Shown: positions 6,080-21,063 of the stretch, piece by piece | Numbering within the stretch: the first letter of the stretch is position 1 | Layout of the letters: every line of letters starts with the position of its first letter | NCBI GenBank assembly: GCA_018064725.1 | Contig: JAGHUQ010000015.1 | Location: 1-51,268, forward strand | Length of the DNA: 51,268 nucleotides | From: Candidatus Cryptobacteroides caccocaballi | GTDB taxonomy: Bacteria; Bacteroidota; Bacteroidia; Bacteroidales; UBA932 | Direction: 5' to 3' | The notes under the pieces: model-generated | Seen by the model: the letters and a program-made list of their open reading frames with translations, nothing else | The model's database searches: none | Told to the model about the DNA's origin: nothing | Translations under genes and position numbers: made by a program

Positions 6080-6110
6080 CACATAACCCTGTATCAAAGA
6101 ACAGATACGT

Positions 6111-6148
6111 CAAATGCCTCAAAGTCATTCGGAACTTTGAGGCATTTG
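6111..6148. terminator. Bidirectional hairpin between convergent relA/spoT-like and PCMD-operon genes
   Basis: Perfect 15-bp inverted repeat CAAATGCCTCAAAGT-N8-ACTTTGAGGCATTTG. Confidence 0.85.
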
Positions 6149-6153
6149 TCTTA

Positions 6154-7764
6154 TCAGTAGATCAGGTCGAAATCATCGACCCAGAGGGTTGTCTTGGATG
6201 AACCAGTGAGATAATCTCCACGTATGCTGGCCGCACAGATCACGATAATGTGGGTAGGCCTTCTCGTAAGGGACCTGTAATCGATAGGAATCTCGATCTC
6301 GACCCAGTCTGTCGACTTGTCCGTGACATACTCGCCATAACCGATGATACCTGGAGACTCCTTGGTGAAGTAAATTCCAGCTGTCGTATTTACGAGAACC
6401 GGAGAATCCTTGGAGCCGCCATAAGTCCTATAATCCCAGTCTCCGACAGTTGCTATGATATGGCAACGGTCATTGTCTCCGAGATGGACAGGGTCATCAG
6501 GAGGATAACTACCTATAAGATCGATTATTCCACTCTCATATTTCATCTTGAAACGGAGAGCCTTAGGTCGGGTAGACCATGGACGGCCATAATTCACCTT
6601 ACCGCCGGTTGTACCCACGAGTCCGGAGAACTGACCTGTGAAGATATTACCACATGCAAGCAGGCCGGCGAAGGACTTTGATTCGCAACGGGCGCAATAA
6701 CGACCGTCCTGAGCTTCCTTCTCATCCGGATATGTGAGCGTGATTCCGAGGCTCGAGGTTCCGTTGATGCCGTCAGGACCTTCACCGTTACCTGTACCCC
6801 AGAACATGAACCTGCCGTCCTCGTCTGCAGCGAGTGGATCGAACCATTTGTAATAGCTGTATCCGGTCACGAGACTGACGTTGTCAAGGCTGTGGTTCGG
6901 GAGCATGGTAGCTGGATCCGTCACGAAGGTCTCTGTTGCCGTATCCTCCTTGCCGCTGAATGCGTAGCACTCATATTCAGTATCCGGCTCAAGTCCGCAT
7001 ATATGTGCAGTGAATTCTCCACCGTCCGAAGTAATATCCGATTCCGGAACATCAATCCAGGCGAGCGTTCCGGTCTTACGGTATTTGAAGCCGTTCCGGA
7101 CTCCGGAAACTCCGTCTGCAGTGATATAAACCTCCTTTGTCCAAGGATTGATATCCTTGATATTTACGCTTGCATCGGAGTGTTCAACATACAGTTTCCA
7201 TGTCTCTGTCTTGTCGAAGAAACTTACTTCAAGTTCAACAAAAGATGTGAAATCCTTCAGTTGGGACATGGTCATGGAATAGCTTGAGACATCTGCAGGT
7301 CCGAGCTTAAGTGAAGTAACCTCCACGGAACTGAGGATGACAGAATTCCTGACATAAGCAATGACTCTGTGGTTTACCACGTCGAAATGCGATGAACCGA
7401 TCTGCCCCTTGACAGTGAAACTTCTCTCTATGTCCTTTGTGGCAGAAATTGTCCATTCATAGTCCTGATACGTGGAAAGAGTCACTGAAAGAGGATCGGT
7501 AAGATCATGTACACCTACCAGAGGGATTGACAATTTCGTCATTTCCTCATCGACAGAGAACGACTTGATATCTACTTTACGGGGATCTGTCTGTTCCTTG
7601 AGAGCTATCGACACTGTCCTGCCATCCATGCTCAGGCTGACAGATTTAGCTCCGTCTACTTCCATTGCAGTGATGTGAGGAACAACCACAGGATACGGGA
7701 TGTCATTCTTGAGGCATCCAGTCAAGGCCATAAGCGATGACAATATAATCAGTACCTTCTTCAT
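6154..7764 (-). CDS. Lipoprotein with C-terminal PCMD (putative carbohydrate metabolism domain)-like domain
   Basis: 536 aa; lipobox LMALTGC; C-terminal ~240 aa (VTGYSYYKWFDP...GNIFTGQFSGLVGTTGGKVNYGRPWSTRPKALRF...) closely parallels the 9319-11187 protein. Confidence 0.75.
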   Translation of the reverse strand: MKKVLIILSSLMALTGCLKNDIPYPVVVPHITAMEVDGAKSVSLSMDGRTVSIALKEQTDPRKVDIKSFSVDEEMTKLSIPLVGVHDLTDPLSVTLSTYQDYEWTISATKDIERSFTVKGQIGSSHFDVVNHRVIAYVRNSVILSSVEVTSLKLGPADVSSYSMTMSQLKDFTSFVELEVSFFDKTETWKLYVEHSDASVNIKDINPWTKEVYITADGVSGVRNGFKYRKTGTLAWIDVPESDITSDGGEFTAHICGLEPDTEYECYAFSGKEDTATETFVTDPATMLPNHSLDNVSLVTGYSYYKWFDPLAADEDGRFMFWGTGNGEGPDGINGTSSLGITLTYPDEKEAQDGRYCARCESKSFAGLLACGNIFTGQFSGLVGTTGGKVNYGRPWSTRPKALRFKMKYESGIIDLIGSYPPDDPVHLGDNDRCHIIATVGDWDYRTYGGSKDSPVLVNTTAGIYFTKESPGIIGYGEYVTDKSTDWVEIEIPIDYRSLTRRPTHIIVICAASIRGDYLTGSSKTTLWVDDFDLIY

Positions 7765-7765
7765 G

Positions 7766-8563
7766 CTACAGATGGATTGAAAGGCCGAAATTCAAGGCCA
7801 GAAGATTCAACTTCGTCTGAGCACGGAAAAAATTTCTCGTGCCGCTCACTTCCCCGGCATTGTATCCTACAGAATGATTGTAGGATAGATCCGCAAGGCT
7901 TAATGCCACATAGACGGAAACATTATTCATAGGGAAATATATCACGCCCGGACAGAAATTGAGGCTTATCTTGTCATTGACCACATAGGTATCACTCGGA
8001 TCGCCCATATAAGAGATGGTCTTTGAACGAGTATAACCCAGAGATGCATCCATGAAAAGTCCAATCCTTCCCCTGTTGTCGAGTCCAAGGTATGACCTGT
8101 TATACACATGGCCGCCATAGGAATGAGTACGTGCGTGGACATCACCTATCCCAGTGCTGAAATTTCCGAGGAGATCAAGTGTCGCCGCATCTACGACAGC
8201 ATTTGCAGAAGTGTACTGGAACCTCAGTCCGATAGACTGATTGTCCATGTAGGTATATGACACATTCGGTGCAAGCCTTAGGACTGATGCGCCGGATTTG
8301 GTATCGTTCAAAAGAAGCAGGAACTCGCTGTCGTTGGCAGATACATCCATATAGGCTATGGTTGCGCCGAACTGCCACTCCCCTTTCGGAGCAATGACAT
8401 AGGATTTGAGACTGCGATTGCTGTGCTTTGTAGTATCGTTATGGACAGGAGCGCCGAGGACTACGGTCTGTCTGACACCCTTGGCATCTCGGTTCTGTGC
8501 ACCGGCAGTAGTCACTGCAAGAATGAGCCCCAGGCTCGCTATCAATATTCTGGACTTCTTCAT
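7766..8563 (-). CDS. Outer-membrane beta-barrel protein (porin-like)
   Basis: 265 aa; signal peptide ending AGAQ; alternating amphipathic strands; C-terminal LNFGLSIHL. Confidence 0.65.
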   Translation of the reverse strand: MKKSRILIASLGLILAVTTAGAQNRDAKGVRQTVVLGAPVHNDTTKHSNRSLKSYVIAPKGEWQFGATIAYMDVSANDSEFLLLLNDTKSGASVLRLAPNVSYTYMDNQSIGLRFQYTSANAVVDAATLDLLGNFSTGIGDVHARTHSYGGHVYNRSYLGLDNRGRIGLFMDASLGYTRSKTISYMGDPSDTYVVNDKISLNFCPGVIYFPMNNVSVYVALSLADLSYNHSVGYNAGEVSGTRNFFRAQTKLNLLALNFGLSIHL

Positions 8564-8569
8564 AGGCGC

Positions 8570-9310
8570 CTAAAGATAATAGCAGAGACCCAGACTTATA
8601 CTGGCTGGATTGACCATGAAACTTGCCGCAGCGGCATCGGTCGAGCCCTGAGAGACCTGATTATGGACCTGATCTGACCAGCCATAACTGATTCCGAGCA
8701 TTCCCAAACTGAATTCCATAGCCAGGTGATTGGTGAGAAACGCAGTGAAACCAGGATTAACGCCAAAGAATATCTTATACTTCTCGACGAAGCTGCCCTT
8801 TACGGCTGAATTTATATCCACAGTGTTCTTGGACTGAGAGAAGGATGCACCGAGATTGAGTTCCGCAAACATAGCGAAGCGACCTCCAGGTCCTAGAGGT
8901 ATGAACGGACGGAGAAGTACCATCCCGGAGAAACTCTGGGAGAGTCTGAAGTAATCCTGTACGCTCATTGAAATCTCTGAGACAGATAGGTTCGCCGACT
9001 CAAGGTCGAAGTGGCTTCTGTTGTATGAGAACCTTGCACCAATACCCATGTTATCCTTCACCATGTACAGGAAGGACGGGCTGGCTGAAACGGTGCTGCC
9101 TGTAGAATTTATTCCGTTGATGACGAGCACGCTATAATCGTTCATGCGATGATGCGAGTAACGGACGTTACCGCCCAGCATGAAGCTTCCCTTCGGCGTA
9201 AAGACGGTCGAGAGAGAATTTAAGTTCTCATAGCCACGATCATAACGCTGAGCCTGGGCAGCGGTAGCGCCCAGGATCAGCATCATGCTTATGACTATAA
9301 TTCTACGCAT
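8570..9310 (-). CDS. Outer-membrane beta-barrel protein (porin-like), tandem with 7766-8563
   Basis: 246 aa; signal peptide ATAAQAQ; beta-strand pattern; C-terminal SLGLCYYL. Shares layout with the neighbouring barrel. Confidence 0.65.
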   Translation of the reverse strand: MRRIIVISMMLILGATAAQAQRYDRGYENLNSLSTVFTPKGSFMLGGNVRYSHHRMNDYSVLVINGINSTGSTVSASPSFLYMVKDNMGIGARFSYNRSHFDLESANLSVSEISMSVQDYFRLSQSFSGMVLLRPFIPLGPGGRFAMFAELNLGASFSQSKNTVDINSAVKGSFVEKYKIFFGVNPGFTAFLTNHLAMEFSLGMLGISYGWSDQVHNQVSQGSTDAAAASFMVNPASISLGLCYYL

Positions 9311-9318
9311 TTCGATGG

Positions 9319-11187
9319 TTATTCATAGAGGAGTTCCACACCATCAAGCCAAAGCTTTGACTTGTCACTTCCGGAGAAATAATCTCCGTACATTGATGCG
9401 GCACCCGAAATCACGATATGAGTTGGATATTCGTTCTCGGTATGGTACTCAAGAGGAATAGTGATCTGACGCCACTGAGTTGTCTCGGCAGCAACAATCT
9501 CACCGGAGTTGATCTGCTGACGTCCGTCACCATAGAGAATGACCTCCGCATCAGCGATGGTAGAAGGGTCGGTCCTATAGTCTACGAAAGTAGATGCATC
9601 CGTAGTATTGACAAGAATAGGACAATCCTTGTCGCCGCCATATGTCTTGTAGTTCCATGTTCCGAGAGCGATCTTGATATTCGCACGGTCATAATCATTC
9701 TTGGTAAGATCAGCACCCTCCGGAAGTGAGCCGATGATATTTACCTTATCGGTAGTATACTTGACCCAGAGACGGATTGCGGTAGGACGGCTGGTCCATG
9801 GACGGCCGAAACATACCTTACCGCCAGAAGTACCGACAAGGCCGGCAAAATGTCCGGTGAAGATATTACCTGCTGCAAGCATACCAAGGATAGATCCGGA
9901 CTGTGCACGTACAGATCTCGCACCATCCATATGCTCGGTCTCATCCACGTAGGTGATGACCATACCCATGCTGGCAGATCCCTTTACACCCTCGTTTCCT
10001 TCGCCGTTTCCTGAACCCCAGAACTGAGTCGTGGCACCAGGTACACCGCAAGAAGGATCATACCACTTGTAATAGCTTGCACCTGCGACGAGGCTCACAT
10101 ACTCGAAGCTCGGGTTAGGTACGTTAGGGCTGGCTTCAGTGGTAAAGGTCCTTGGCTCACCCTGATCCTCTCCTGCTATCACAAGCTTGTATGTATATTC
10201 GGTAGAAGCGGTAAGACCCCTGAGGACCGCGCTGTATGAACCTTCGGAATTTCGTACTGCATCAACGCTTGTCCAATTGGAACCATCGCTGGTGTATGCG
10301 AACTTGATTGCGGAAGGATCGCCGAACTCGCTCTCATCGACATCTGCATGGACAGTCGCATGTCCCGCCCAAATCTCGTAGATGCTTGAAGCTGCGAGAC
10401 CGGTAGAGGTTGCTTCGAATACGATGACGTCATCGACAATGTCCGTTCCATAGTCAACAAGAAGAGAAAGTCCGAGGAGTCCGTCCTTGATGGTGTATAC
10501 AAGGTTCATGGTATACAGCTTGCCAGGCTCAAGATTCTCGATCACACCACTCTTGGTGAAGGTGCTGCCGTCTTTCGCAAGGGTGCCGTTGAAGGTCCAT
10601 GAGAATGTAGGCTCGTCCACTCCACTGATGATGAAGTAACCCTCCTTTCCTGACTTTGCAGCATCATAAACGAGCTGTGTCGACGCATCAGATGCATCAA
10701 GTCCGATTGTGAGTGAATATCCTGCGTTGAAGTTCTCAGCGACGGTAGCATCATAATTGAGCTTGGTCACAGCATTGCATACTCCGGCAGCAACCTGCAC
10801 AGACGAATTCTGTCCTGCTGCGATGGTAAACTCCTTTGAGCCTGCGTAGCTCTTCTGATCCCATGAAGCTACTGCAGGAGCAGCCTTGACCGCTTCACCG
10901 GCAAGCACATCCACACGATATGAATCTGCAGGAAGATAGATGGTAGAAGGTGCGTCAGCATAGGTATACTGGCGTACGAGACCGCTGAAATCAGCCATGT
11001 AAATCTTTACCGAAGCGGAGTTGACAAGCTCGTCAGAGCTCATTGCAGCTTTGGTCACAGCAGGAAGCTCTACGCTGAGAGTGAGACTTCCCTCACCCTT
11101 GTCTGAAGCATTTCTGATTTCCTTTGAGCAAGAAGCCGCAAGCACAGTTGCAGCTGTGAGCATGAAAGCGTATGTAAGTCTTTTCAT
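9319..11187 (-). CDS. Lipoprotein with N-terminal DUF4493-like region, Ig/FN3-like linker and C-terminal PCMD-like domain
   Basis: 622 aa; lipobox VLAASC; GSLTLSVELPAVTKA...; C-terminus VAGASYYKWYDP...GNIFTGHFAGLVGTSGGKVCFGRPWTSRP. Confidence 0.75.
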   Translation of the reverse strand: MKRLTYAFMLTAATVLAASCSKEIRNASDKGEGSLTLSVELPAVTKAAMSSDELVNSASVKIYMADFSGLVRQYTYADAPSTIYLPADSYRVDVLAGEAVKAAPAVASWDQKSYAGSKEFTIAAGQNSSVQVAAGVCNAVTKLNYDATVAENFNAGYSLTIGLDASDASTQLVYDAAKSGKEGYFIISGVDEPTFSWTFNGTLAKDGSTFTKSGVIENLEPGKLYTMNLVYTIKDGLLGLSLLVDYGTDIVDDVIVFEATSTGLAASSIYEIWAGHATVHADVDESEFGDPSAIKFAYTSDGSNWTSVDAVRNSEGSYSAVLRGLTASTEYTYKLVIAGEDQGEPRTFTTEASPNVPNPSFEYVSLVAGASYYKWYDPSCGVPGATTQFWGSGNGEGNEGVKGSASMGMVITYVDETEHMDGARSVRAQSGSILGMLAAGNIFTGHFAGLVGTSGGKVCFGRPWTSRPTAIRLWVKYTTDKVNIIGSLPEGADLTKNDYDRANIKIALGTWNYKTYGGDKDCPILVNTTDASTFVDYRTDPSTIADAEVILYGDGRQQINSGEIVAAETTQWRQITIPLEYHTENEYPTHIVISGAASMYGDYFSGSDKSKLWLDGVELLYE

Positions 11188-11208
11188 TTTTCTATTCCTC
11201 CTATACGC

Positions 11209-12465
11209 TTATTCAACAACCATGACTACAGGAATAGAGTTCCTGCAACCCTGCTGGTCAGTGATGTTCATGCAGAAATTATGTACACCAGGATAGATAG
11301 TGATTGCTTCCTGGGCAGCGCTGAGCTCAAATGAAAGTTCAGTCTGATTAAGGAGTTCAGCACCATGAGGGAATGGAACAACCTGGAAGATGATTGCATT
11401 GTCCTCTGATGGATTGATGAGGTCAAGATGCTCAGCTGCAGCTGCCTGAACCGCAGAGACGAAAGCCTCATTGGTAGAGGTGATGTCAACGCTGAACTTC
11501 TTCACGCCGTTAGGTACGACTGCCTTGAGGACAAGCTTGATCTTCCTCTCGGACATCTGAGGCATGACAAGGTTGTTGAGATCGGTGAATTCGGCGTCGC
11601 AACCATTCTCGTAATCGAAGAGAAGCCTGATATCACCATCACCCTTAGGAGCATTAGGATCACCACCTATGATGTCCTGAAGTCCTGCAAGGCTGTTGTT
11701 GAGTTCCTCGTCATCTACCATATCATTGATTACGACATCGAAGGTAGCGTTACCTTCCTCATCTACCTTCTTTATGAACTTGACCTGACGCCACTGCTTT
11801 GCAGCGATACCGGTGAATGTCTTTGTCATCTTCTGACTGCGTCCCTCGATATTGCCCTTGAAAGTGACTTCCATGGTGGTGTTGGCTCCGTTATTGACGG
11901 CAAAATATCCTGCACCCTGCTCATATGAGACAGATCCGCCGCTGTAAGTCATGGCATAGCTGAGAGGATATCCTGAAGACACCTCGACAGTTGCAACGCC
12001 ATCACCCGTTACCATTGCAAGGAAATCATCACTGTAGCTGACAGTAACCTTGCACTGGAGAAGTGAACAGGTAAGGCTGCCAAGATTTGTGGTCTCACCT
12101 GCCTGGATAGTGAATGAGGTTGAAGCGCCGTAAATAGGCTGTTCAAATTCCGCAACAGGGACATTCTCCTCTGCAGAACGAGCTTCAAGAGTATACTTGC
12201 CAGCAGGGAGAGTAAGTGTATTGTCAGCTCCCTTTACTGCTGCATATGTCGTCTGCTTGACGACATCACCATTCTCGTCAAGAACGAAGATTGTGTAGTT
12301 ACCGCTTGCTGGTGAAACGGCCTTTGTCTCGACATAATCGTCACACTCTACGGTAAACGAATCGAAGGAAAGGGTTCCCTGTCCCTTAACCGGCTTGGCC
12401 TTGTCGCATGAAACAATAGAAAGCGCCACAAGAGCCATTGATACTATGCTGATAATCTTTTTCAT
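11209..12465 (-). CDS. DUF4493-like lipoprotein
   Basis: 418 aa; lipobox LSIVSC; GTLSFDSFTVECDDYVETKAVSPASGNYTIFVLDENGDVV...LPAGKYTLEARS pattern typical of DUF4493. Confidence 0.7.
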   Translation of the reverse strand: MKKIISIVSMALVALSIVSCDKAKPVKGQGTLSFDSFTVECDDYVETKAVSPASGNYTIFVLDENGDVVKQTTYAAVKGADNTLTLPAGKYTLEARSAEENVPVAEFEQPIYGASTSFTIQAGETTNLGSLTCSLLQCKVTVSYSDDFLAMVTGDGVATVEVSSGYPLSYAMTYSGGSVSYEQGAGYFAVNNGANTTMEVTFKGNIEGRSQKMTKTFTGIAAKQWRQVKFIKKVDEEGNATFDVVINDMVDDEELNNSLAGLQDIIGGDPNAPKGDGDIRLLFDYENGCDAEFTDLNNLVMPQMSERKIKLVLKAVVPNGVKKFSVDITSTNEAFVSAVQAAAAEHLDLINPSEDNAIIFQVVPFPHGAELLNQTELSFELSAAQEAITIYPGVHNFCMNITDQQGCRNSIPVVMVVE

Positions 12466-12482
12466 CTATTTTCCTCCTACCT

Positions 12483-13211
12483 CTAGTCATTAAGTTCGAT
12501 GTCACCGAGAGATACGGTCTCAACAGTGTCGTTGAAAGAGATGGTTACTGTTACGCCTGCGACATTATCCACATCGAAGCTGACGGTGTAGCAGGTCTTA
12601 GGCTCGAGATTGATATACTCTCTCGAGAATGACTGCTGCTTACCGCCCTGGGTTAAGAGATCTCCGGCGATGGTGAACTTGAATGCATCCACGAAAGCGG
12701 CACGAGTCTCACCCTTAGGGAAATCGATCTTAGTGCCGTTGCCGGTTGTCACCGTGAAAGAATAATCAGTAAAGAAATTCTTGAACGCGTCGGAGCAAGT
12801 AACCTTTACGATACTGTTTCCGAGCTGAACAGGAATACTTACCTGTGCGGTGTTGCCACCTACAACTGCAAACGATGAACTTCCTGAGAAGTAAGGCTTG
12901 TCGAATCCCTCGATGCCTTCCTCACCGTAGCTGGCAATTACGGTATAATTGCCTACGTTGAGTGCGGTCGAAGCATCCCAGCCGGAAATAGGGCCGCTCC
13001 ATACTGATGCATTGTCTGCATCCTTGATGGAGATGTTGAAAGAGGCTGTAGCGGGAAGAGTAGTATAGTCCGAAACCTTTCCTTTAGTGATTTCGGCCAC
13101 TTCCTCGTTACTTGTGACTGCAAATCTCACAGAGCCTACTTTGCCGTTCTCCTTGGAGCAAGCTGCTGCGAGAAGAACAGTGGCAATGACTGCAATTCTG
13201 TTAAATTTCAT
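12483..13211 (-). CDS. DUF4493-like lipoprotein, short
   Basis: 242 aa; lipobox LAAAC; VGSVRFAVTSNEEVAEITKGKVSDYTTLPATASFNISIKDADN...NVGNYTVIASYGEEGIEGFDKPYFSG. Confidence 0.7.
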   Translation of the reverse strand: MKFNRIAVIATVLLAAACSKENGKVGSVRFAVTSNEEVAEITKGKVSDYTTLPATASFNISIKDADNASVWSGPISGWDASTALNVGNYTVIASYGEEGIEGFDKPYFSGSSSFAVVGGNTAQVSIPVQLGNSIVKVTCSDAFKNFFTDYSFTVTTGNGTKIDFPKGETRAAFVDAFKFTIAGDLLTQGGKQQSFSREYINLEPKTCYTVSFDVDNVAGVTVTISFNDTVETVSLGDIELND

Positions 13212-13257
13212 GAGTCTGTCGGTTAAAAAATCTGATTCTACTTATTGATAACTATTA

Positions 13258-15111
13258 TTATTGTGCTATGCTTGCCTGGATATTGTCCAGGTATAGGTAA
13301 TATACGCTGTTCGCCGCAATGTGCGATGTATTTCGTGCCGTACAAGCGAAGAATACGAACCTGGTATTCCGGTTCACACCATCAATGACATGAGAGATAT
13401 GGGACATTTTGGAAATATCCTCAGATCTTCTCTGAGGTGAAAAATATCTTACGTTCACATTGCTCTGGATATCATTGTAATTATATCCATCCATCGCTGA
13501 CCCCATTGGTTTCTCATGGGTTCCGAGAATATAGAACGCCATGTCGCTTTGAGAGTCATCATAGCTCATACCTGCAGGGACATAGAAAGCATTGTCATAC
13601 TCAAGCTTGACCGACACCGAGACACCTGGCTTCAGATATGACATCGCCGGAGTATCAAGTCGTCCGCAATATCGTCCCACGACCCATGCGCCAGACTGGT
13701 AACGGCAGTTTATGCGGATAGCGTCACCGCCGATGATCTTGTACCTCGAAGCATTCCAGCCAGCGACAGGCATGAATTCGTCAAGGAGATAACCGCCCAG
13801 ATTCGTATCACTGCTGGTACCTGCAGAGTAGCTGTCGTTATGCTCAGAATCAAGAGCATTGTTAAAATTCTCATATATGAGGTAAGGCACCTCACCGAGT
13901 TCAAGCCTGGCGACATTATCGTCAATGACGATATCAGAAGATCTGAGGTTTTTCTCTACGATGGCGTGATCTGTCTCAAATACAAGCTTAGCCGAGCCAC
14001 TTGTCACTGCGTTGCAGATGGCATGATATCCAGACTCTCCCGCCTCTCCGAGGAATTCCTCAAAGATCTTGATATTGCTGTACTTTCCCTCGTCATTCTG
14101 ATAAGAATAGACCTCAGAGCCGCCGTTCACTATGGAAATCTTGCGTACAGTCTCTCCGATGTTATTGAGCCCCATGGCCATGACGACCCTGAAGTACTTT
14201 TCCTTGGAAACAGGAATAAGGCGGACCGGAGTAGAATGACCCGGAAGAAAATCCCTGTCCGAGAGCGATATAGGGTTCATTCCAAACTTATACGACTTGG
14301 AATACGCTGTCAGCTGCATATAATCATCCGCGCCGTAGCTGCTGCCATCGGTAAACATGGACATACATGCATAATCCCTCGCGGCATCAGCAGAAGACGC
14401 AATAGGCTTGGACAATTCTATCATCACCGAATTCGAGCCATCAACCAGACTCGCAGGAGCGTCCGGATCAGCGAGATCGGCATTCACCGTACCGACGATC
14501 TGCCTAGGCATGGTCACGAAGATATCGCGGATAAGCTCCCCCTCGAGATCCACATTCGCAGGAACATAGAAACGAAGGTGATGAAGTATATGATTCATCC
14601 TGAGTCTCAGGCTCGAATGATCATCCGGATCCGGTATCTTAGTCAAAGGACCATGCATTACCGGATCTGCTATCATGATATCAGAACCGCCGGAAACCCT
14701 TCCATCCTGTTCTGAAGGAAGGTCGAAGCTGGCAATCGTCCCCTGCACATTCTTCGGTACCGGGTATGAGGCCATGTAAAGATACCTGTCCTCCGGCATG
14801 GGGGCATCAAGAGTCGCGGTGAATACGCCGGTAGCGTCACCAGCACCATAGATACCGAATACCGTTCTTGAAAGTGTATAATCGTCAGATGAATTTCTGG
14901 CCCATACGGCCATTTTATCGCCACTCTCCCAAGCCGCAGAAAGGCCGTTATCCCCGATGACGGTACGAGTGACTTCTCCGCCGGCACGAAAGCCCACGGT
15001 AAGCTGGTCAGTTTCAGGCGAATGGGACTGCTCCTGCTGGCATGAAGCCATAAGCGTCATACCGGCGCAAAGACCAATCAAATTCGCAATCTTAGTAAAA
15101 ATGCGTCTCAC
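13258..15111 (-). CDS. Fimbrillin-like lipoprotein with C-terminal beta-sandwich-like domain
   Basis: 617 aa; lipobox TLMASC; N-terminal LTVGFRAGGEVTRTVIGDNGLSAAWESGDKMAVWA typical of fimbrillin (Mfa-like) proteins; C-terminal region from YLIYENFNNALDSEHN. Confidence 0.65.
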   Translation of the reverse strand: MRRIFTKIANLIGLCAGMTLMASCQQEQSHSPETDQLTVGFRAGGEVTRTVIGDNGLSAAWESGDKMAVWARNSSDDYTLSRTVFGIYGAGDATGVFTATLDAPMPEDRYLYMASYPVPKNVQGTIASFDLPSEQDGRVSGGSDIMIADPVMHGPLTKIPDPDDHSSLRLRMNHILHHLRFYVPANVDLEGELIRDIFVTMPRQIVGTVNADLADPDAPASLVDGSNSVMIELSKPIASSADAARDYACMSMFTDGSSYGADDYMQLTAYSKSYKFGMNPISLSDRDFLPGHSTPVRLIPVSKEKYFRVVMAMGLNNIGETVRKISIVNGGSEVYSYQNDEGKYSNIKIFEEFLGEAGESGYHAICNAVTSGSAKLVFETDHAIVEKNLRSSDIVIDDNVARLELGEVPYLIYENFNNALDSEHNDSYSAGTSSDTNLGGYLLDEFMPVAGWNASRYKIIGGDAIRINCRYQSGAWVVGRYCGRLDTPAMSYLKPGVSVSVKLEYDNAFYVPAGMSYDDSQSDMAFYILGTHEKPMGSAMDGYNYNDIQSNVNVRYFSPQRRSEDISKMSHISHVIDGVNRNTRFVFFACTARNTSHIAANSVYYLYLDNIQASIAQ

Positions 15112-15143
15112 GAAAACCTGGTTAAGAATCCTCTAAAAACATA

Positions 15144-15175
15144 CAAATTTAGCAATAATAAATCTTATATCCAAA
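15144..15175 (-). promoter_or_regulatory. Promoter of the seven-gene surface-lipoprotein operon (TTTG-N20-TAAATTTG)
   Basis: Minus strand TTTG (15175-15172), 20-nt spacer, TAAATTTG (15151-15144), about 33 nt upstream of the 15111 start codon. Confidence 0.7.
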
Positions 15176-15200
15176 AATCGGCCTTTTGGGGGATTTTCCG

Positions 15201-15208
15201 TATATTTG
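15201..15208 (+). promoter_or_regulatory. Candidate -7 element (TATATTTG) of parE
   Basis: TATATTTG 24 nt upstream of the parE ATG; no TTTG at the expected -33 spacing, so only half of the promoter is supported. Confidence 0.45.
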
Positions 15209-15231
15209 CATGAATTTCCCCAGAATTTGCT

Positions 15232-19937: not shown

Positions 19938-20933
19938 TTATTTAGTCATGACGAAAGTGGTTGCATCAGTACCGAGCTGGTATACCGGAACACGTGTGTC
20001 GAGCAGCATGGTGGTACCCTCATAGAGCTTGACCCTGCACACGGCAGGAACCCTGTAGTGTACGAGTGCGCCCTTGCCGGCCTTTGCCTCACCACCCGTA
20101 ACCGGCGCTACAGATTCAGGAAGCAGCTCCAGCACGACAGGTGAGCCGGAAAGATTGTCCGCAGCCACGGCACCTTCCGTATCAGAAAGACGGAAGGCAA
20201 CGTACTGATGGCTGCTCTTGGAAGCCTCGGGCACGACCTCAACGTTGTACACCTGAGTCTGCACGTCAGTATATCCGACGAAAAGGCTGAGATACTCCTT
20301 CTCGAGTCTCTTCATCTCAGCGACTGCGTCACCCATAGCCTGACCGCTGTAGGTCATGTCCGTATCGCCGGTAATTATCTGAATTCTGGTATTTCGAAGT
20401 TTGAAGATCATCTCCGCAGCCTCGGCAGCACGTTTATCCGGGGTCTTCTCCACGAGTACGCTCTGAGTTATCTCACTTACGAGACCCTCTTCGTCCGTCT
20501 TATAGAGCTTTGTCGATTCTATCGCACGATTGGAAGTAACTCCCCTTTCGGAAAAATCCGTCCTCGCTGAAGAAGGGAATCTCCATGTGGAAGAAGAAGT
20601 CGCAACATCTCCGGAAACGCATACGAGTCCCTGGCTGGTGAAACTGCCGAGCGCGGACGCAGGAACAGCAGCCGAGTATCGTGCAGACATGTCAGCCTCC
20701 ACGCGCGGAGTCATGACGATCTTGACGATGTGGCTCTCACTGGAGTCTTCCAGCCGCGCATCTACTCCGAGATATTTCTTGGCATATTCTGCATAAGGAC
20801 CTGCATGGAAAGTCTCGATGACGGTCTCGACTTCCAGAGAGAGAGAGGTCTTAGGAAGGGAATACACCTCCTGAGCATGCAGAACCGGCATTGCGGCGAA
20901 CATAGCCGCTATCATTGTCAAAAGCTTCTTCAT
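19938..20933 (-). CDS. DUF4831-like family secreted protein
   Basis: Start placed at the MKKLLTMIAAMFAAMPVLHAQ signal peptide (ATG at 20933) rather than the longer ORF; resembles DUF4831 proteins of Bacteroidales. Confidence 0.7.
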   Translation of the reverse strand: MKKLLTMIAAMFAAMPVLHAQEVYSLPKTSLSLEVETVIETFHAGPYAEYAKKYLGVDARLEDSSESHIVKIVMTPRVEADMSARYSAAVPASALGSFTSQGLVCVSGDVATSSSTWRFPSSARTDFSERGVTSNRAIESTKLYKTDEEGLVSEITQSVLVEKTPDKRAAEAAEMIFKLRNTRIQIITGDTDMTYSGQAMGDAVAEMKRLEKEYLSLFVGYTDVQTQVYNVEVVPEASKSSHQYVAFRLSDTEGAVAADNLSGSPVVLELLPESVAPVTGGEAKAGKGALVHYRVPAVCRVKLYEGTTMLLDTRVPVYQLGTDATTFVMTK

Positions 20934-21063
20934 CTTATTAAAAATTAATTTTTCACCGGACATCAAGCCCAAAACAATCTAGGCTGCAACAAAGATACCA
21001 AAAAATCAAAGGATTTCACTATCTTTGTAGAACTACTGACAAATAATCAATCTCATATAAATT

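Follow-up and report, generated by a model that had tools for sequence, protein, structure and literature searches.

The window analysed here, a 51,268-nucleotide stretch of the uncultured gut bacterium Candidatus Cryptobacteroides caccocaballi (contig JAGHUQ010000015.1, assembly GCA_018064725.1), carries a seven-gene operon encoding five surface lipoproteins (FIM, D1, D2, DP and PC) and two outer-membrane barrels (B1 and B2). With a probability of about 0.7, we read this operon as encoding a type V (Bacteroidales) pilus, or a short fibre for adhesion, of a variant form. The product of the seven genes is most likely a filament on the cell surface that binds sugar, is related to the type V pili of Bacteroides and differs from them in its membrane anchor and barrel pair. 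An earlier, sequence-only reading of this DNA had proposed an undescribed class of appendage; that part did not hold, since the pilin fold, the lipoprotein start and a basic-site signature are common to type V pili, so that the operon is a variant of them. Sequence and fold evidence support this variant status; how the subunits are processed, ordered and polymerised, what the barrels do and which sugar is bound are inferences.

Pilin-like lipoproteins and a conserved basic residue

AlphaFold models were made for FIM and DP and compared with the PDB by Foldseek. The FIM model (predicted local distance difference test score, pLDDT, 84) consists of a pilin-like N-terminal part (residues ~37-410) followed by a C-terminal jelly-roll (~411-617). 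Its top matches were Bacteroides type V pilins, namely 4k4k (8.9e-9), 3t2l, 3ufi, 4eps and 4h40, and Mfa2 was matched as well (5nfi, 4.5e-4). Weaker matches were jelly-roll domains, the CBM22 structure 4xuo and the K3 adhesin domain of Kgp (3m1h), which fit the C-terminal jelly-roll of FIM. In Pfam, FIM itself had no match and 7 of 35 orthologues matched Mfa_like_1 (best 1.8e-10). DP (pLDDT 87) is made of a DUF4493 domain (31-255), an FN3-like segment (~262-350) and a PCMD jelly-roll (361-619; Pfam PCMD 2.4e-27). Its model matched both PCMD structures (3hbz at 9.7e-14, 4het, 4jrl and 3s30) and type V pilins (3up6 at 9.2e-7, 4gpv, 3pay and the FimA prepilin 6jzk at 3.8e-5). FIM and DP are thus each predicted to combine a type V pilin-like N-terminal fold with a C-terminal jelly-roll of sugar-binding type, and D1 and D2 may share the pilin fold through their DUF4493 family. 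The fimbrillin or pilin reading of the first gene and of the DUF4493 proteins, for which structure prediction against known pilins had been proposed as a check, was borne out in that both models match solved type V pilins. The fimbrillin part of FIM stood; the C-terminal jelly-roll that follows it suggests that FIM is no generic fimbrillin but a tip adhesin. Outside the operon, another pilin-like pair was seen at locus L191 (G000:C119, 8688-12837), where a lipoprotein with DUF4493 and DUF6359 lies beside a DUF4906 protein.

A second line of evidence came from a strict column scan of the mature regions, requiring Lys and Arg at 30% or more each and at 85% or more combined. Exactly one mixed Lys/Arg column was found in each of FIM, D1, D2 and DP, and the same scan found none over the ~950 columns of B1, B2 and PC. 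The residues concerned are R49 of FIM (R32 by ATG-start numbering; codon 14965-14967; Lys or Arg in 71/72), K43 of D1 (codon 13083-13085; 68/74), which is the sole conserved basic column of mature D1, K48 of D2 (codon 12322-12324; 71/75) and K46 of DP (codon 11050-11052; 62/63). Lys and Arg interchange at this column, the preceding residue is usually Thr, and both models (FIM and DP) place it in the loop that immediately follows the first strand. Polymerisation of Mfa1 and FimA is set off when an Arg-specific protease cuts them behind the N-terminal strand (PMC5954841), and type V pilins of gut Bacteroidales are cut N-terminally by a surface clostripain, according to a 2025 review (PMC12632263). 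The window genome encodes a clostripain-family lipoprotein (Peptidase_C11, 7e-25, at G000:C10), and by analogy such a protease is a candidate processor of the operon pilins.

Candidate anchor, barrel pair and the filament reading

Tip pilins typically bear C-terminal binding domains, and the anchor retains its lipid (PMC12632263). PC is the only one of the five lipoproteins to lack the Lys/Arg site, which makes it the likely lipid-retaining anchor and not a cap. Its invariant start after the lipidated cysteine follows the pattern C-x-x-N-D-[LIV]-P-Y-P (N in 78/78, D in 74/78, P in 81/81), and it is composed of one or more immunoglobulin-like N-terminal domains, an FN3-like segment and a C-terminal PCMD domain (301-535) whose profile matches PCMD structures (3e-23). 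The earlier proposal of two PCMD lipoproteins as ligand-binding or capping components needs correction: DP is a DUF4493 pilin extended by FN3 and PCMD domains, and PC, which has no cleavage site, is a probable anchor and sugar-binding subunit. No anchor of the Mfa2/FimB family (PF08842) was found in the operon or in the window genome, which is 94% complete. Residues 36-101 of PC match the N-terminal domain of the levan surface glycan-binding protein (SGBP; 8a9y, profile match, 2.2e-9), in which the lipidated immunoglobulin-like domain and the SusC barrel are rigidly joined as one unit (PMC7618045); by analogy PC may anchor the fibre and dock on B1 and B2.

The two barrels are paralogues (HHalign, 8.7e-46). 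The barrel call was weak for the single proteins (Pfam OMP_b-brl 3.5e-4 and BBP2 1.5e-3) and became firmer at family level, with OMP_b-brl matched by 10 of 26 B1 orthologues; the count of five lipoproteins and two barrels is confirmed. Against solved structures, the barrel profiles gave no match. A kinship with DUF3575 barrels was examined because a typical classical fimbrial locus (L187) pairs such a barrel with pilins: in order, it has a DUF3575 barrel, DUF3868, Fimbrillin_C, Mfa2 and further pilins. B1 reached 0.004 against DUF3575 (PF12099) in Pfam, below the cut-off, and HHalign gave a match of 30 columns only (probability 84%), so that B1 and B2 were treated as a separate family. Elsewhere in the window genome, locus L186 (G000:C128, 5516-11302) combines a DUF3575 barrel (1.9e-37) with a weak Mfa_like_1 match (2.5e-5) and has no Mfa2; it is likely a second fimbrial locus.

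It is conceivable, if doubtful, that B1 and B2 serve a type V-like pilus as an outer-membrane platform of its own, either an usher-like exporter or a base, with PC docked as a glycan-binding anchor. To our knowledge no type V subclass that assembles through its own pore has been described, and such a platform would define one.

The main rival explanation is a surface complex for TonB-independent glycan capture, or a porin complex, in which the PCMD and jelly-roll lipoproteins bind polysaccharide, B1 and B2 provide the channel and no filament is made. It is in keeping with the putative carbohydrate pocket of the PCMD protein BT2081, whose relatives occur in polysaccharide loci (PMC2954218), with the resemblance of the N-terminal domain of PC to the SGBP domain that forms a rigid unit with SusC (PMC7618045), and with weak matches of B2 to OmpL-like porins. 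We nevertheless judge it improbable, because SusC/SusD, a glycoside hydrolase and an inner-membrane transporter are absent among the conserved genes, four of the five lipoproteins bear the pilin-type Lys/Arg site, and FIM and DP model as type V pilins.

Under the pilus reading, FIM, D1, D2 and DP would be exported to the cell surface as lipoproteins, where an Arg/Lys-specific protease, clostripain-like and encoded elsewhere, would cut after the conserved basic residue behind the first strand. This cut would remove the lipid and the first strand, and into the groove so exposed the following subunit would insert its C-terminal strand. FIM, with its pilin part and jelly-roll, would sit at the tip as the adhesin. 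D1 and D2 have no C-terminal binding domain and may be shaft or adaptor subunits, and DP, with its pilin, FN3 and PCMD parts, may be a second ligand-bearing subunit. PC, left uncleaved, would keep its lipid and anchor the fibre, its immunoglobulin-like domain probably docking on the B1/B2 pair, which would form the base.

Several points weigh against this interpretation. The pilin matches of FIM and DP are partial and at fold level only, with template-modelling scores by target of ~0.3-0.56; these modest whole-chain values reflect the multi-domain nature of the proteins. By sequence, the profiles of FIM, D1 and D2 matched no pilin in the PDB, and the models cover FIM and DP only. As a motif T[KR] is short, the clostripain gene lies apart from the operon, and the operon lacks the classical markers Mfa2, DUF3575 and DUF3868. 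PC and DP also look like the surface glycan-binding proteins found in sugar-uptake loci, and the filament and the cleavage of its subunits are predicted from genes and modelled folds.

Conservation of the gene set

A PC profile search recovered 80 loci from named genomes, mainly Bacteroidales metagenome-assembled genomes of horse and ruminant gut labelled Cryptobacteroides, Alistipes or Rikenellaceae, which with the window locus makes 81. All seven genes were present in 73 of the 81 loci, and the absences were mostly at contig ends. The order FIM-D1-D2-DP-B1-B2-PC was kept in the complete loci with one variant excepted, and median intergenic gaps across loci were 3-27 nucleotides. As the flanking genes vary between groups, the operon is the conserved unit. 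In the variant order (L127, L130 and L132), B1-B2 does not lie between DP and PC but directly upstream of FIM, in divergent orientation, so the two barrel genes can evidently move as a pair. Over the whole order, PC was found in 26 of 294 Bacteroidales genomes, belonging to 13 families, and 24 of these 26 also have a DP-like gene. These relatives have shortened sets, in which a large first gene with DUF4493 and a PCMD-like domain often replaces FIM and the small D1, and some have a single barrel. The proposed neighbourhood survey thus established recurrence. A chance run of co-oriented surface genes could be imagined, given how plentiful lipoprotein genes are in Bacteroidales genomes; 73 complete loci of 81 and a spread over 13 families refute it, and its probability is negligible.

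Nearly all members of the five lipoprotein families have the lipobox: it was found in 64/73 FIM, 67/75 D1, 73/75 D2, 74/77 DP and 75/81 PC sequences. A lipobox on every subunit, together with pilin matches restricted to fold level, would also suit adhesin lipoproteins displayed singly on the surface or on vesicles, with a fimbrillin fold kept by descent only and no polymer; lone fimbriae-like lipoproteins are described, as for PG1881 (PMC11225709). We consider this very unlikely in view of the strict co-conservation of subunits and barrels, which persists even in genome G170, whose B1-B2-PC and D1-D2-DP parts are both present although on separate contigs (L150 and L161), and in view of PC being alone among the lipoproteins in having no Lys/Arg site.

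A related set was found, via a plasmid collection, in Parabacteroides distasonis (NZ_OY725756.1, L193). It sits behind a divergent helix-turn-helix regulator and has the order DUF4493, DUF4493, DUF4493/PCMD, 'hypothetical', PCMD, DUF4493, DUF4493, where the 'hypothetical' protein is a B1-type barrel (5e-82). All five DUF4493 proteins have T[KR] at the equivalent position (5/5), and the PCMD protein starts C-A-I-E-N-D-I-P-Y-P. In L081, PC is likewise followed by three extra DUF4493-type genes. The presence of such genes after PC suggests optional accessory subunits. Plasmid mobility of the operon was considered and rejected: this record was the single good match in the plasmid collection, and "plasmid 11" is probably a mislabelled chromosomal contig because it carries metG, pckA and other housekeeping genes.

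Operon layout and relation to known systems

The seven minus-strand open reading frames span 6154-15111, and the intergenic gaps of 46, 17, 21, 8, 6 and 1 nucleotides are exactly those claimed at the outset. Pfam placed DUF4493 in genes 2, 3 and 4 (1e-39, 6e-32 and 5e-34) and PCMD in genes 4 and 7 (2e-27 and 9e-31); the earlier list of three DUF4493 and two PCMD proteins is correct as to domains and counts DP twice, because both domains lie on it. An NCBIfam search returned nothing useful. A single promoter with no internal box had been described, and TTG-N18-22-TAnnTTTG indeed has one minus-strand match within 6100-15231, at 15174-15144. The motif preceded FIM in 21 of 72 loci, compared with 2% of shuffled sequence, so a promoter common to all relatives was not found. 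At the other end, the inverted repeat taken for a terminator is a real hairpin (16 bp stem, -27.1 kcal/mol, z = -7.67 against shuffles); placed between convergent genes and lacking a U-run, it is not a textbook intrinsic terminator. Further along the window, a DUF4831 protein of unknown function (6.8e-44) is encoded at 19938-20972.

Features of the operon and its flanks, in window coordinates, with the basis of each assignment.
Feature	Position	Strand	Basis or context
Promoter, Bacteroides-type, TTG-N20-TAAATTTG	15144..15174	-	upstream of FIM; motif scan
FIM lipoprotein	13258..15111 (GTG start)	-	AlphaFold, Foldseek, Mfa_like_1 in orthologues
D1, DUF4493 lipoprotein, pilin-like	12483..13211	-	Pfam DUF4493 1.2e-39
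D2, DUF4493 lipoprotein with additional C-terminal domain	11209..12465	-	Pfam DUF4493 6.3e-32
DP, DUF4493 + FN3-like + PCMD lipoprotein	9319..11187	-	Pfam, AlphaFold, Foldseek
B1, outer-membrane beta-barrel, Sec signal	8570..9310	-	OMP_b-brl in orthologues; B2 paralogue
B2, outer-membrane beta-barrel, Sec signal	7766..8563	-	B1 paralogue; BBP2/OmpL-like 1.5e-3
PC, PCMD lipoprotein	6154..7764	-	Pfam PCMD 8.9e-31; profile matches to solved structures
Hairpin	6111..6148	.	between convergent operon end and rel-like gene

Among the surface families of gut Bacteroidales that still lack an explanation are DUF4493 and PCMD. DUF4493 now gains a proposed role as a type V-like pilin, and PCMD proteins one as its tip or anchor partners. 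Our search, which left subscription journals and preprints aside, found no published description of the gene set and no paper on DUF4493, PF14900, PF13201 or a 'PCMD domain'. For P. distasonis, a survey based on fim/mfa homology reported no complete mfa-like cluster (PMC9409006). The conserved set defined here is one that searches for fim/mfa homologues would miss, and its presence in the culturable P. distasonis makes the questions of processing site, anchor and barrels directly testable.

As the sequence-only reading had held, the operon is not a standard polysaccharide utilisation locus, Pfam finding no SusC/SusD pair among its seven genes. With the levan SGBP BT1761 (8a9y), PC shares the lipidated immunoglobulin-like N-terminal domain; the C-terminal domain of BT1761 is ThuA-like instead of PCMD, and its partners are SusC and SusD. 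DP and PC have in common with the PCMD proteins BT2081 (3hbz), 4het, 4jrl and 3s30 the C-terminal jelly-roll and an immunoglobulin-like N-terminal part. Relatives of BT2081, however, lie beside SusC-type transporters in polysaccharide utilisation loci, whereas the PCMD domains of the operon are fused or linked to pilins and small barrels. The likeness to type V pili (FimA/Mfa1 of Porphyromonas gingivalis and the Bacteroides pilins 4k4k, 3ufi and 4eps) extends to surface lipoprotein pilins with a common predicted fold, the basic residue that follows the first strand, C-terminal binding domains on the probable tip subunits and a probable lipid-retaining anchor. The operon differs from them in having no Mfa2/FimB anchor, DUF3575 barrel or DUF3868 protein, with a cleavage-site-free PCMD protein in the place of the anchor, in its DUF4493 pilins, and in its barrels, which form a paired family with a marginal relation to DUF3575.

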